A stretch of 64,000 bases of DNA from Thunnus maccoyii. Lineage: Eukaryota > Chordata > Actinopteri > Scombriformes > Scombridae. Of this stretch, positions 1-10,277 are shown piece by piece. Where the stretch lies: the NCBI RefSeq assembly GCF_910596095.1, contig NC_056539.1, positions 27,116,501 through 27,180,500 of the forward strand, read 5' to 3'. The translations under genes were made by a program, and so were the position numbers. Below the pieces are notes generated by a model. It saw only the letters and a program-made list of their open reading frames with translations. It was not told the origin of the DNA and ran no database searches. Position 1 is the stretch's first letter; the number at the start of each line of letters is the position of its first letter.

Positions 1-83
1 GTAGCAATAATTATAAAATGTATTTGGTTTAAAAGCCTGAATTCTCCTTTAACCTTCTGTTTGCTGCTTCCCATGGTGCTTAG

Positions 84-3000
84 CGGTGGGAGGGTTCTTC
101 CAGCAAAGCTGCGTACCGGGCGCCAACCAGCCCGGTTTCCCGAGCAACCTGTGCGCTTTGTGTAAGGGAGACGGCACAGGGCAGAACAAATGTGAGAAAG
201 GAAAAGACCAGTATGATGGATACGACGGTGCCTTCAGGTACTAAAAATTGCTTGATACGTTGCTTGAGCTTAACACACTTTATTTGAATGTAACACACTG
301 CATCTTTGTCCATTCAGGTGTCTAGCAGAGGGAACTGGGGAAGTGGCTTTCATCAAACACACCACTGTCTTCACAAACACTGATGGTAAAACAAGTAACT
401 CCAGGATACAGAATATTCTCCTTTTAAAAGTCGCTTCTCAGTCAACCACCTCTCTAACCACCTCTCTTTGTGTCTTTATTCAGGTAACTCGACTGACCCG
501 TGGGCACAGAATCTCCTGTCCAAAGATTTCCAGCTGCTCTGTGCCCAGGACAGCAGGGCCGAGGTCACGGACTACCTAAACTGTAACCTGGCCAGAGTCC
601 CTTCCCATGCTGTGATGGTGCGGCCAGACACCAACATCTACATTGTCTATGGACTCCTGGACAGCGCACAGGTACTGAATATGCATATGTACAGTATGCA
701 TGTGTCATTTTAAAGTGGAGAGTCAGAGGAATTCGGGAATGTGTGTAACATAAAAGTGATTTAGTATTCTTCCTAAAGTTAGGAAACTTGCAAGAGATAG
801 ATTTTTAAAAAGAAGTCAAAGTGGAAGCAACAGAAGCAGAGATGTCTTGACTTTTGAACTTTCTATGACTCAACTCAGTGGTGAAGTTCATTAGGCCCTA
901 ATTGCCTGGTGAATGTCTTGCAAACTGAACACATCCAGAAGGTGCAAGCCAGCAAAGTAAACTGGCTTAAGATAAATAATGCTTCATATTCTTACAGTTT
1001 TTTGTCTTTTTTTTTTGTCAAATTGATCATCATGTTTCAAGATTCTTCTTGGTGGTGCATTCAAGGATTCTCCGACATCTGAGAAGTGATGATAAAATTC
1101 AAAAGACAAACAATCAATGTTGTAAATTTGATTTTTGATTTTTTTTGTGTGTTGCTCAGGTGTTGCTCTGTTTAGCAGTGTATTACAAAGCCAAAACATG
1201 TGCTCTCAAGTATCCACTGGTATTCAGTCAGTAAGTGAAAAAATAGGGCTACTAATCACAACAAAATAAATTGAGAAAGCAAAAATAGATAAATAAAAAC
1301 ATAAAAAAGATCATCCCAAATGTAGATTGTAGCCTAATTTCAAGCTGCATTAAGGTACTTAATTAAGGATTTTCAAATTCTATGACACTTAGAGAGATTG
1401 TGTTTTAAAACGTATTGAATCTTCCAGACACACTTTAGTGGTTAGGACATTAGTTTCCCTCCAGTGTGTTTTTTTTCTGTAATGAGGGAAAAAGAAAGAG
1501 TTTCTTAGTGTTTGAAAAGTTTACTGTTGCGTCAGATGAGCCGAGGACGATTAGTAAAGAATCTGATTCTAGATAAGCAGTAATGATTTTAGAAATAATG
1601 TCAAAAATGCCGGACCAAAAGTTTAGAATTTTAAAACAAATGAAAAAAAATACAGCTTAAAGTTTCTTCTAAGGACCACATCTTAGTAGATATATAAACA
1701 AATCAAGAAATCAATGTCCCAAACAAAATGTAACCTGAATCTTAAGTGAGTGATGTAGTTTCTAATAATAATAAAATTGCTGTTGAGTTTTTGAAAAGGA
1801 TCCCGGTCGAGGCAACAAAGCTACATGTTGATAACTTAACTTTGACCAAAACAAATAAATAGATAAAGTAGACAAAAAGTTCAATGTGATGGATTAACAA
1901 TCTCTCAGATAAGTCTCATGTGTCTTCAAGTTCATGTTATAGTGAGATGAATCAGTGGCTAAACTAGGATATAGGAAATCAACTCTTGTAAACATGGATT
2001 GAACCTTTAATCAACATGATGTTTTGGTCTTTATTAACCTTCTTTGTCTCCTTCACTGTTTCTCTGCAGACATATTTTGGCAGTGACACTGGTAGTGGTT
2101 TCAAGATGTTCGACTCACAGGCCTACAGCGGCAAAGATCTCATCTTCAAAGACTCCACCGTTCGCCTGGTGAGTGTCGCTGACAAAAAGACCTACGAGGA
2201 GTGGTTGGGCCCGGGCTACCTGGACGCACTGGTCAACATGGACTGCAACTCATCGAGTGCAGGTAAAAACACACCACATTTCTTTAATCGTTCTTTACAT
2301 CCGTTTCATTTCAGCTGATGGCTGTGTGAAATGTGTCTTTTACCACTCAGGCAGTGCTGAAATAAAGAGAATCTTATTATAATTGGTTGAAAAACTCATC
2401 AAATTCTGGTTAAATATGAAGCATAAACACTCATAAATCTCTTAAACAAATACACCAACGTTACAGAGGTTCTTAGATAGACATGACACTGTGAAACTGC
2501 TCTGGTGGGACGCTCAACACTGTCTAATATTCAGTAGGGCTGTACTTCAGCACATGGGGATGTTTAAGCTCACCGTGTATACAGTACAATCAGTAACAAT
2601 TATGTCACCTTGTGATTAAAGCTGTCCCTTATTTCAATAAGTCTAATTCTAAAAAATGAGAGTAAACTGTGGTGATGTGTTTTTTTTCCATCATTGTTTC
2701 ATTAAAATCCAGCCAGAGGTGTTTAAGATATCATATATGATATTGTGGAAGAAAGGATGAGCCCCTGGATTTATCAGTGTGATTTTGAAAATGCTGGAGA
2801 TTAATGTTTTCCCTAAATTTAATCCAAAACAACTCGGCTACATTTTGAAATTATGAGTGAAGATAGATGAAGGAAAGAAGGAAGATTGATCCATTAATAA
2901 GATACACAATACAATAAGCTGTCAATTTCCACTTACTAAAAGCCAGTGCATGCTTCAAAGTTGTTTTTTTTATGTACAGTCTCCTTTAATATTTTAAAAT

Positions 3001-3085
3001 TTCTTTCCCTCTTCCAGTGATGTCCTCTGCATGGCTGCTTCTGGTGGCGCTGCTCAGCTCCATGCTGACCAACCTCTGGATGTAA
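84..3085 (+). CDS. meltf: Melanotransferrin, C-terminal exons (partial gene)
   Basis: Membrane-anchored transferrin-family iron-binding protein (p97); the window holds the end of its C-lobe. Five coding exons join in frame with GT-AG borders: 84-237, 318-385, 484-671, 2070-2262 and 3018-3085. Intron phases are 2, 1, 0 and 1. Recognisable family stretches are [14 protein letters not shown] with [16 protein letters not shown] (exon 84-237), [12 protein letters not shown] (318-385), [18 protein letters not shown] (484-671) and GFKMFDS with [14 protein letters not shown] (2070-2262). The last exon encodes a hydrophobic tail ([13 protein letters not shown]) that ends at TAA 3083-3085, as expected for a GPI-attachment signal. 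The upstream exons lie outside the window; the first exon here needs one base from the previous exon. A strong GT donor inside the fourth exon (2169) is probably not used, because the reading frame continues with conserved sequence. Assignment to melanotransferrin rather than serum transferrin rests on the GPI tail and overall resemblance. Confidence 0.93.
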
Positions 3086-3537
3086 AGACAATATGCGTCC
3101 AGCCTCTTCCCCTCTTCTCCTTTCCTCCTTCCTTTCTTCTTTTTCTCTTTTCCTTAACTCTCACCTCTCTATAGCCCATACCCACCCCACCCCCCCTTCC
3201 CTCCTTTCTCTCCTCTACCCTTTTTATTTCTCTTTTTTTCATACCGGAGTCTTCAGACTTTGAACCTCTTGACTGCTGTTCAGTCAAATCACTCTCCAAA
3301 CTCCGTCCCTGATTACATGTTTTATCTTATCTTACGATTACATCATATTCACCATATGTTATTTTATTATATTTGAGACGATGGCATGTTGGAACTGCCT
3401 TTGGATTTTAATGGTGGTAATGTTGAAGCAAATGAAGCACACTTACTGGTGCGGCAGAGAAGAGAGTTAGCTGCCAGATGACTTGCAGCCAGTGTGAATA
3501 TGACACGACGAGGTGCCGCTGCCACTTTGTTTACCGA

Positions 3538-3573
3538 AGGTGAGCTGCCATACCAGTGCGTATGCTACCACCT
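3538..3573 (+). promoter_or_regulatory. Iron-responsive element 1 (IRE hairpin)
   Basis: Canonical IRE geometry on the sense strand of meltf: bulged C at 3548, perfect 5-bp upper stem CATAC (3549-3553) with GTATG (3560-3564), and hexaloop CAGTGC (3554-3559). Below the bulge, G3547 pairs with C3565; after a small internal loop AGGTG (3538-3542) pairs with CACCT (3569-3573). In known IREs, IRP1/IRP2 bind this loop and bulge when iron is low; in a 3' UTR this protects the mRNA. Confidence 0.85.
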
Positions 3574-4044
3574 GTTACTTTGCTCTAGTGGGAAGCTCCT
3601 CTCTGTCTCTCCGAAGCTGGTTTTAACAGGAACAGACAATTTGATTTTTAACCTCACATGACTCACAGATGATGTTGTAGCTGCTGGTTTACCACAGGAA
3701 ACCTGATCTAATTAGGCCTCCCAGTAAAATCCTGAAATTCTTTGTGGTAAAAACAGCAGTAACATGAGGTGGAATTATTTTTAAACTCTCACCAATTAAA
3801 ATAAATATAGTTAGTCAGCCCACACATTCGAAACCACAGAAGAAAATTACAACCTGCACTTTATTTGTTTTTACTTTCCCAAACATACCAAAAATTAAGA
3901 CCGTAACTGACCCCAGATCAGCTACAGACATTTAAAAGGCGTCATGTGAACGTAAAAGTCAGATTTCTGTTCTGCTCTGCTGCCACTTGCTCTGTGAATA
4001 CTACTAACGAGCATGGCCTTTTCTCGGCCATGTTCTGACTCTAA

Positions 4045-4075
4045 GCTGATGCCATATCAGTGAATATGCACTAGT
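4045..4075 (+). promoter_or_regulatory. Iron-responsive element 2 (IRE hairpin)
   Basis: Bulged C at 4052, 5-bp upper stem CATAT (4053-4057) with ATATG (4064-4068), hexaloop CAGTGA (4058-4063). The lower stem CTGATG (4046-4051) pairs with CACTAG (4069-4074), with one G-U wobble and one A-C mismatch. It is the best-formed of the three and lies just upstream of the first poly(A) signal. Confidence 0.87.
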
Positions 4076-4182
4076 GTTTCCCTCCACACAGAGCTGTGCC
4101 GAGGTCGGTGTGATGATGAGTGACTGTGTGTCCGTAGGTTGTTTGCTTCATGTGTTTTATTCAAACACTTTAAAATCAAGGA

Positions 4183-4188
4183 AATAAA
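4183..4188 (+). terminator. Poly(A) signal, meltf short form
   Basis: AATAAA about 1.1 kb after the meltf stop, followed by a T- and G-rich stretch. A second AATAAA at 4964-4969 could end a longer mRNA. Confidence 0.5.
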
Positions 4189-4779
4189 TTATTTCATTCA
4201 TCTGGTTTCTCATCTGCGCTCGCTTGCAGCTGCACATTCAAATCTTTTTTTTTTAATCTTTTGCTGTATAATATTTTAGCATTTCTCTTGTTAATGTAAT
4301 CTGATTGACTGCTTCAGCGTTCTTCCCAGTTATCGGCCATTTTTTCAGACTTTTTTAGCATTTCATTTGGACACAGTCGGAGCGAGACAAACTGACTCGT
4401 TGGTCAAGTTCAGAGAAAACATGGAGAAAACATCCTGTGGTTTGTGTTGGAGAGTGAATGAGTTTTTTGTTTGTCTGGATGGTTTATTTCAAACTGGAAT
4501 TTATGTCAATTGAAGAAAAACAAGTTTTGAAAAACTGCTTTCACTTTATCGTCTTCAGCTTTTTTGCTTGTGTTTGACTTACAGAAAGAAAATTGACAGG
4601 AAATACAGTTAAAAGACAATAATTGTTTATTCTCGACTGTTTCCGCGTCATATCCTCCGAATGAACTAACCAGCTCTTGTCATATCTGCTGTACTTCCTG
4701 ATGCTTGATGCTGTTTCCTGTTTTAAAATGTTGATCGGATGTGTATTTTCCTATTGTCAGAGATTTATTTTTATATGAA

Positions 4780-4813
4780 GTTCAGGTGCCATATCAGTGT
4801 ATATGTACTGACT
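4780..4813 (+). promoter_or_regulatory. Iron-responsive element 3 (IRE hairpin)
   Basis: Bulged C at 4789, 5-bp upper stem CATAT (4790-4794) with ATATG (4801-4805), hexaloop CAGTGT (4795-4800). Lower stem: TG (4787-4788) with TA (4806-4807), one G bulged at 4786, then TCAG (4782-4785) with CTGA (4808-4811). It lies beyond the first poly(A) signal, so only a long transcript would include it. Confidence 0.82.
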
Positions 4814-4963
4814 CATGCTGTCAGAAACAAATGCATTCTCTTCCTCCTAATAGAGATGTATATTTATGTGAAATTATGGGACATTGAACTAACATTTAAC
4901 TCTGCACTAGTACTTCTACATAAAGCTGCTGACTTGAGCTGTTTTCTGTGCTTGTTCAAATTA

Positions 4964-4969
4964 AATAAA
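4964..4969 (+). terminator. Poly(A) signal, meltf long form
   Basis: AATAAA followed by TGTAAGTG and a TG-rich stretch (about 4985-5000). If used, all three IREs are included in the mRNA. Confidence 0.45.
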
Positions 4970-5164
4970 TGTAAGTGCCACAAGTGTGTGAGAGTGATGA
5001 ATGTTACTCATTTCTGAAGATGTTGCAAACTGTGCTCTCTCCTCTGCTCATGTTATTGTCTTAAAATAGGTGAATTTTGGCTTCATTTCACAGACAAATG
5101 TTTTATTTTGGCAGAAATCAGATCTCCTCTTACACCTTTCTATACATGAAATTTGGTTTGTCCA

Positions 5165-7726: not shown

Positions 7727-8032
7727 TTATTTCTTGATCTGTCTGGACCCATCCTTCCAGCCCTCCTTCACCTCATTCACAAACGTCTTTTGGACCCTCT
7801 TGAGCCGGTTGCCCACCTCTCCCAGGTCACCGGGGACTCGTCCAGCCTCCTCCCGGACCTGCCGCAGCGTCTGCGACTGCATGACCCGCTTCGAGGCGTC
7901 CTGGCCGGCTAGCTGAGCCTTGGTGAGGGCGTAGGCTGTGATCTGAGCAGCCCTGCGGATCGGACGAGACTCTGCCAACTTCTCAACGACTTGGAGTCTG
8001 TTCAGAAGGGTAAATAACATGCGAGCGAGCAT
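7727..8032 (-). CDS. ncbp2as2: NCBP2AS2-like small protein (101 aa)
   Basis: Small conserved vertebrate protein encoded next to NCBP2; its molecular role is poorly defined. The single coding exon runs from ATG at 8032 to TAA at 7727-7729. The N-terminus is hydrophobic (MLARMLFTLL), followed by the family signature VEKLAESRPIRRAAQITAYAL and AQLAGQDASKR (residues 15-49), then a basic/acidic helical tail ending in lysines. Length matches the human protein (about 99 residues). A 5'-UTR intron is likely: a consensus donor (GTAAGT, minus strand, at 8242) and an acceptor (TTATTTCAG, at 8124) define a 119-base intron. A second Met at codon 5 is an alternative start. The convergent upstream neighbour is meltf; the next gene, fkbp2, is divergent. 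Confidence 0.85.
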   Translation of the reverse strand: MLARMLFTLLNRLQVVEKLAESRPIRRAAQITAYALTKAQLAGQDASKRVMQSQTLRQVREEAGRVPGDLGEVGNRLKRVQKTFVNEVKEGWKDGSRQIKK

Positions 8033-8123
8033 TTTTTCAAGTGTTTCCTCAGAGATCGGTGTCCTAGCTGATACGTTAGCTTAGCCAGCTAACTCGCCGT
8101 CCAACTCTCGAGATAGTTTAGCC

Positions 8124-9240: not shown

Positions 9241-9860
9241 AGTTTTTTGTGTGTTTTATTTATTCATTTATTTATTTTATATTTACTTGTTTGTTGTATT
9301 TGTGTCAGGTTACTGCTGCTTGGATTATTTTTTGTATGTTTTATAGAGATGCAATGCCTGTTTTGTTTATTTAACAGCCAGTTGACTGTCTCAGAGTTAG
9401 CTAGACATGTAAATTTCATTAGCAGTCCCTGTCAGGCAAATTTACAAAACAATCAAATGTATCAAACATTACATCATACCAAACTAAAAGCACTATTTAT
9501 TTAAAGCATTACATCATACAAAAAAATAAAATAAAACAATCTCTGAGTAGTACCTATGTGGTTAATGGTCACATTAGACCATGTTGGTGTTGAAATGTCC
9601 GTGGATTAATTATAAAAAATAATTAAATAAAAGTTTCACTATTTAAATTGGTGTAGAAAATATCGAATCTGAAACCAACTTCAGCATCGTCAGAGACTCT
9701 TCCCCGGAAGTTTTTAATGGTGACACCAGCCGGTGAAGTTTCCTACGTATATCCGCTCTCTGCAACACACTCAGCGGCTCTTTTCCCTGATTCATCACTC
9801 ACAAAGCTTCTCCAAACCTCAAACCCTTTAACACCTGAAAATCGTGCGGGGACTGCGGCC

Positions 9861-10277
9861 ATGCGGGTGTTGCTGTTGTTCGCGGTGACGCTGCTCTCTC
9901 TGAGCCCGGCGGCGGTCAACGGAGCCGAGAAGAAGAAGCTGCAGATCGGCATCAAGAAGCGAGTGGACAACTGCCCCATCAAGTCACGGAAAGGAGACGT
10001 GCTGAACATGCACTACACGGGCAAACTGGAAGACGGCACGGAGTTTGACAGCAGCATCCCCCGCGACAGGCCCTTCACTTTCACCCTGGGAACCGGCCAG
10101 GTGATCAAAGGCTGGGACCAGGGCCTGCTGGGAATGTGCGAAGGGGAGAAGAGGAAGCTGGTCATTCCCTCCGAGCTGGGCTACGGAGACCGGGGAGCTC
10201 CGCCTAAGATCCCCGGAGGAGCCACGCTCATCTTCGAAGTGGAGCTGCTCAGCATCGAGAGGAGATCCGACCTTTGA
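9861..10277 (+). CDS. fkbp2: FKBP2 (FKBP13), ER peptidyl-prolyl isomerase, intronless CDS
   Basis: Catalyses proline cis-trans isomerisation in the ER lumen and binds FK506-type macrolides. The 138-aa protein has a signal peptide (about 1-21, [12 protein letters not shown]...VNG), then one FKBP domain. Visible pocket residues: Y52 in MHYTG, D63 in EFDSS, W85 in KGWDQGLLG and Y108 in LGYGDRG. C38 (DNCPIK) and C93 (GMCEGEK) match the disulfide pair of FKBP13. The C-terminus RRSDL resembles a weak KDEL-type retrieval signal (RTEL in human). The ATG at 9861 is chosen because it has a good context (GCGGCCATGC) and opens the signal peptide; an upstream in-frame ATG (9717) has poor context. The whole CDS is one exon, unlike mammalian FKBP2, which is split. 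A donor at 10291 and acceptor at 12058 suggest a 3'-UTR intron. Confidence 0.93.

Follow-up and report, generated by a model that had tools for sequence, protein, structure and literature searches.

Three putative iron-responsive elements in the predicted 3' UTR of melanotransferrin in Thunnus maccoyii

What melanotransferrin contributes to iron uptake is a long-standing controversy, in which the lack of an iron-responsive element (IRE) in its mRNA has served as an argument against an iron-regulated transporter. The available excerpts of PMC13213057 report iron uptake by GPI-anchored melanotransferrin (2026), describe the mammalian gene (MELTF/MFI2) as lacking an IRE, and recount that the human protein has been doubted as an iron transporter for want of one. 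Three IRE-like hairpins are seen downstream of the orthologous gene (meltf) in a 64,000-nucleotide stretch of Thunnus maccoyii DNA (the window, C7:27116501-27180500), and raise the question of whether melanotransferrin mRNA in this lineage is under iron control of the type known for transferrin receptor 1 (TfR1), as a first-pass annotation of the window had proposed.

The first ~3 kb of the window contain, on the plus strand, the final exons of a gene of the transferrin family. C-lobe exons are located at 62..237 (recognised by its reading frame, with a donor at 238 and only the 3' border assigned), at 318..385 (an open frame with AG/GT borders, matched to melanotransferrin by phmmer), and at 484..671, where reading frame, Pfam and phmmer agree, as they do for the exon at 2070..2262 in which the C-lobe ends. 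The coding part of the last exon (3018..3085) encodes a hydrophobic, GPI-signal-like tail, which is probably a GPI signal, and ends with the termination codon TAA at 3083-3085. The joined exons give 230 amino acids that match Pfam Transferrin (PF00405, E 3.7e-57), and the best PDB match by phmmer is 6xr0, melanotransferrin, at 471 bits, followed by lactoferrin at 286 bits. By this similarity the gene upstream of the hairpins is melanotransferrin, mammalian MELTF/MFI2 being its closest solved protein by sequence, and the placement of the hairpins downstream of meltf in the first-pass annotation is upheld, since all three lie between this stop codon and an AATAAA at 4964. A second meltf gene was sought in the genome and none was seen; seven of the 11 matches are exons of the same locus and four are weak (28.8 to 35.8 bits).

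The N-lobe of the same gene, encoded upstream of the window (C7:27109540-27113600), apparently retains only two of the four iron-ligand motifs, having SMASS in place of the C-lobe TLDGG and PSRGI in place of PSHAV, whereas all four are found in the C-lobe; the motif positions used for this reading are those that we take to be the ligand positions. In human melanotransferrin, iron is bound by the N-lobe.

The hairpins are positioned 453 to 1728 nt 3' of the meltf stop codon, on its sense strand and upstream of the AATAAA at 4964-4969, which overlaps an ATTAAA at 4960 and is followed by a GT-rich stretch. This organization suggests that the meltf transcript extends to about 4990, with a putative 3' UTR at 3086..4990. 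Two other possible poly(A) signals, both AATAAA, are present within it; use of that at 3800..3805 would remove the second and third hairpins, and use of that at 4183..4188 would remove the third, such that shorter meltf mRNAs with one or two hairpins could be formed. These internal signals would also fit a meltf mRNA that ends sooner, with the hairpins forming part of another transcript, either antisense or an independent RNA. However, the IRE sense agrees with that of meltf, the first hairpin precedes every AATAAA of the region, and the AATAAA at 4964 with its GT-rich downstream sequence directly follows the third, and we regard a separate transcript as highly improbable.

The three hairpins, spaced by 504 and 737 nt, are referred to as IRE 1 (3538..3573), IRE 2 (4045..4075) and IRE 3 (4782..4813), all on the plus strand. 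In the core, which extends from the bulged C8 to N24 (3548-3564, 4052-4068 and 4789-4805), IRE 1 has the stem CATAC/GTATG and the loop CAGTGC, and IREs 2 and 3 share the stem CATAT/ATATG with loops CAGTGA and CAGTGT, respectively. Three sense-strand hairpins with a bulged C, a 5-bp stem and a CAGTGN loop had been noted at first pass, and they prove to be the sole such sites in 64 kb on both strands; just three of the 42 C-N5-CAGTG sites in the window, both strands included, have five of five Watson-Crick upper-stem pairs, and the runner-up has three of five. Dinucleotide shuffles of the window (n=300) contain a mean of 0.057 sites with C8, a 5-bp stem and CAGTGN, and one such site arose when the 1916 nt at 3085-5000 were shuffled 3000 times. 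If sites are independent, the expected number of such triplets spanning no more than 1.27 kb is about 1e-4 in a genome of 782 Mb, a figure that is generous because the cores are nearly identical and an old duplication is possible.

The cores differ with pairing retained, as had also been claimed. N13-N20 is C-G in IRE 1 and T-A in IREs 2 and 3, which constitutes one compensatory stem change, and N19 is C, A and U in IREs 1, 2 and 3, and never G. The lower stems pair in the predicted folds, yet not clearly above shuffled flanks (Fisher p 0.09-0.16 at three flank lengths); against flanks drawn randomly from the UTR, the corresponding values are p 0.003-0.01.

A different account of the near identity is that the sites are duplicates of one short UTR sequence, IRE-like by descent or by chance and with no present function. 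All three fit the pattern TGCCATAYCAGTGNRTATG, which was derived from them and to which one further window site comes within 3 mismatches, and sites 1 and 3 agree in their left flanks at 12/20 and 18/40 positions, above the null expectations of 5.3 (sd 2.1) and 10.6 (sd 2.9). However, the remaining flank comparisons among the three sites deviate from the null by about 1.3 sd at most, what has changed between sites is the compensatory N13-N20 pair and the free base N19, the shared core spans the part that IRPs contact, and the 1351-nt segment 3500-4850 has itself as its sole genome match at the sensitivity of the search. Functionless duplicates are accordingly an explanation to which we give little weight. 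A transposon origin of the UTR segment was also considered and is unsupported, given the single genome match at this sensitivity. The hairpins could be either old duplicates eroded to the part that matters or of separate origins; with either origin the part retained would be what IRPs read, and the differences observed are limited to one compensatory pair and the free loop base N19.

The pattern GCCATANCAGTGNNTATG has two genome occurrences outside meltf, one on C15 with a perfect stem and one on C5 with one stem mismatch. The former (C15:8559291; L006 8793) is on the sense strand of an apparent intron of a dpy19-family gene. Its core is perfect and shares all 19 nt with that of meltf IRE 2, its lower stem is good, and it scores 19.7 bits with the four-IRE model described below. 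The presence of this 19-nt core in an apparent intron means that the core alone is no proof of function. The cluster, unlike the core, is unique to meltf in the genome for this pattern.

Whether the hairpins qualify as IREs was judged by the five features of Volz 2021 (PMC8466369, in the portions available). The C14-G18 cross-loop pair is implied by the sequence of all three, A15 G16 U17 is present in three of three, and the five-base-pair upper helix is Watson-Crick at 5/5 positions in each. The bulged C8 is found at 3548, 4052 and 4789, and the N7-N25 pair beneath it is G-C, G-C and G-U (G-T in the DNA), respectively. U or C at N19 is seen in two of the three (C in IRE 1 and U in IRE 3); IRE 2 has A, which occurs at a frequency of 0.16 among 38 classic IREs in the same excerpts. 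The location is that of a UTR on the sense strand, after the meltf stop codon and ahead of the AATAAA at 4964, taking the predicted transcript end. By the motif table in the available part of the SIREs 3.0 paper (PMC12230718), all three are SIREs motif 1 with N7-N25 paired.

We also constructed a covariance model (R2) from four published human IREs, those of ferritin H, ferroportin, aconitase 2 and ALAS2, as printed in Table 3 of PMC12845348; two of the six IREs printed there were left out, that of DMT1 (extra bulge, and misaligned) and that of TfR1 (stem printed with six pairs). In the 64-kb window IREs 3, 2 and 1 rank 1st, 4th and 5th, with 20.1 bits (E 0.016), 16.0 bits (E 0.19) and 15.4 bits (E 0.26). 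The matches ranked 2nd and 3rd (16.7 and 16.3 bits) are without an IRE motif, and the R2 model alone therefore singles out only IRE 3; a non-IRE site elsewhere (in L008) scores 15.2 bits. When applied to the same genome, the model gives 26.2 to 16.6 bits for ten TfR1 CAGTG IREs, and 25.5 and 23.2 bits for two ferritin-type IREs, such that IRE 3 is inside the TfR1 score range and IREs 1 and 2 are just under its lowest value.

The suggestion made at first pass that the hairpins be run through IRE predictors has a divided outcome: the SIREs motif fits all three, whereas the Rfam models IRE_I and IRE_II report none of them in the window or in the genome, where the 82 and 87 best candidates, respectively, were scored. 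We did not count this silence as a refutation because the genome searches score best candidates only, although the two models do report ferritin-type and TfR1 IREs. Among the 82 candidates scored, IRE_I has four matches, two of them above cut-off and both with the ferritin core; the reading frame that follows the IRE_I match in L011 is one that we recognise as ferritin-like. IRE_II has 37 matches among its 87 candidates, 33 of them above cut-off; they fall into three blocks on C12, a group of sites on C21 and a pair of arrays on C18.

Folding gives a graded result. In a constrained fold, which differs from the SIREs procedure, the IRE-form energies of IREs 1 to 3 are -11.5, -5.8 and -8.9 kcal/mol, all inside the range of -2.8 to -11.7 given for gold-standard IREs in the accessible part of the SIREs 3.0 paper (PMC12230718). 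With 16-nt flanks, and an energy model that omits the C14-G18 pair, the IRE-fold probabilities are 0.19, 0.08 and 0.37; those of the controls are 0.19-0.99 for ten TfR1 sites (nine of ten at 0.64 or above) and 0.92 for two ferritin-type sites. Allowing 2 kcal/mol for the cross-loop motif raises the values for IREs 1 to 3 to 0.85, 0.68 and 0.94, the contribution of this motif being quoted as 1-3 kcal/mol (PMC8466369, excerpt). In a 100-nt context the probabilities are 0.10, 0.01 and 0.00, and values below 0.05 are also obtained for six of the ten TfR1 sites; folding in long context was consequently dropped as a discriminator. In our judgement the three hairpins are very likely to be IRP-binding elements.

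What would such elements do? In TfR1 and DMT1, IRP binding to an IRE in the 3' UTR stabilises the mRNA in low iron (PMC7160331, PMC12230718; both in part). A plausible mechanism is that in low iron both IRP1 and IRP2 would bind the three meltf IREs and shield the mRNA from decay, such that meltf, probably a GPI-anchored iron-binding surface protein, would increase alongside TfR1, and that in high iron the IRPs would release and meltf mRNA would drop. Several IREs within one 3' UTR of an mRNA for iron uptake are typical of this control; the three hairpins appear to provide them, the uptake role being taken from the literature, and suggest TfR1-like control of meltf. The whole chain, in which the hairpins are genuine IREs of the meltf 3' UTR and IRPs stabilise meltf mRNA in low iron, is in our view probably correct as read from the DNA.

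The closest parallel is the 3' cluster of TfR1 (TFRC), which likewise has several C8/CAGUGN hairpins past the coding region of an iron-acquisition gene. It differs in that meltf has three elements with CATAY/RTATG stems, where TfR1 stems are of the TTATCGG../CCATAA type; the predicted folds of meltf are less dominant, the R2 scores of two of the three are lower, and the sites are unreported by Rfam IRE_II, which does report those of TfR1. TfR1 mRNA also carries additional instability determinants. DMT1 (SLC11A2) is another iron uptake gene with a 3' UTR IRE, of which it has one. In the DMT1 element the 3' strand of the upper stem bears an extra bulge (PMC8466369, in the part available), which is missing from the meltf elements. 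The 5' IREs of ferritin, ALAS2, ferroportin and ACO2 have the same hairpin core, and the meltf sites are picked up by R2, which derives from these four; UGC is found immediately ahead of the upper stem in the meltf elements, a further likeness to ferritin. These IREs are, however, located 5' and act by translational block (that of ACO2 spanning the start codon), whereas the meltf elements are 3'.

The differences from TfR1 bear on whether the meltf elements, if bound by IRPs, would control stability at all. They could bind IRPs without TfR1-like stability control, the effect being weak, tissue-specific through alternative poly(A) use, or mainly one of IRP titration, and several observations point this way: the elements stand further apart than on C12, with four TfR1 IREs packed into about 400 nt (8742672 to 8743070), the two upstream AATAAA would drop one or two IREs, the folds are less dominant than those of TfR1 and ferritin type, and a scan of the meltf UTR for a constitutive-decay hairpin of the UUCYRYGAA type, which we take to be the consensus of the constitutive-decay element (CDE), found none. 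But wide spacing occurs also in the TfR1 copy on C21, where a gap of about 1.06 kb separates two IREs, and three intact elements are hard to account for without selection. Binding without stability control is thus an unlikely reading, though one to be taken somewhat more seriously than that of functionless duplicates, and stabilisation by IRPs in low iron is the one that we favour.

Other components of the system appear to be present in the same genome. A 41-aa fragment on C22 is nearest IRP1 (69.5 bits, versus 59.6 for IRP2) and a 43-aa fragment on C5 is nearest IRP2 (66.9 bits, versus 62.4 for IRP1), and IRP1- and IRP2-like sequence is thus represented, at the length of these fragments; there are two further aconitase loci, and the one tested is mitochondrial aconitase. 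TfR1 IREs number four in each of the three C12 blocks and six on C21, and TfR1 identity was tested on C12 for one block of the three (91.7 bits) and on C21 (29.3 bits, a weak match). The three blocks (C12:8742649-8776272) contain near-identical TfR1-type IRE clusters, and it looks from their arrangement as though TfR1 is tandemly triplicated on C12, the coding part having been tested in one block.

In fish, the available parts of the literature touch on meltf regulation in several places. In zebrafish embryos treated with selenium, meltf and tfr1b go up together at 24 hpf and down together at 96 hpf, which gives weak support for joint control because the ferritin-like fthl27 also rose (PMC9100823, in part), and in the zebrafish gut meltf is among the iron-transport genes raised by the microbiome (PMC11906160, in part). 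Hin et al. 2021 compiled sets of zebrafish genes predicted to contain IREs, as cited in the available portions of PMC8146209 and PMC8807579. An open-access full-text search, partial in coverage, found no IRE described in fish melanotransferrin, and the gene list of Hin et al. 2021 may contain meltf. The meltf elements would be an addition to the IRE family and not a new kind of system. If real, three canonical IREs in the fish orthologue would mean that evolution treats melanotransferrin as part of the iron-starvation response in at least one vertebrate lineage. We propose only tentatively, and with somewhat more doubt than confidence, that ray-finned fish melanotransferrin is a second TfR1-like IRP effector with a multi-IRE 3' UTR, that the mammalian gene lost this control, that multi-IRE 3' UTRs in this fish extend past TfR1 to meltf and possibly to an Ig-receptor gene, and that 3' IRE clusters have thus been gained and rewired in evolution.

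Among the other IRE-like sequences in the genome, we note a 21.3-copy tandem array of a 56-bp unit with TfR1-like IREs on the minus strand of C18 (L049 1475-2662). It contains 13 CAGTG sites with five pairs when G-T is counted, seven of which are Watson-Crick throughout, and starts about 95 nt past the stop codon of an exon on the same strand that encodes a V-set Ig domain and a hydrophobic segment. Against a location in a 3' UTR, the array itself contains one poly(A)-like hexamer, and the next 900 nt contain none. If located in a 3' UTR this would be, to our knowledge, the largest IRE array, and it could act as an IRP sponge or put an immune-type receptor under a very strong iron switch; a literature search on IRE arrays in Ig genes found no paper. 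A second array of the 56-bp unit, with 8.1 copies (C18, minus strand; L050 1298-1753), follows a paralogous Ig exon about 21 kb away; six of its eight counted loops are CAGCG, one is CAGGG and one is CAGTG, and it seemingly represents decayed IREs beside the more intact 21.3-copy array.

Two reading frames are found downstream of meltf in the window. A single-exon ORF on the plus strand (9657-10277) encodes an FKBP-type isomerase (Pfam FKBP_C) with what looks by eye to be a signal-peptide-like start, and is perhaps an FKBP2 retrocopy. A small ORF on the minus strand (7727-8080; SRPIRRAAQITAYALTKAQLAGQDA) has no Pfam match, and resembles NCBP2AS2, a neighbour of MELTF in human.
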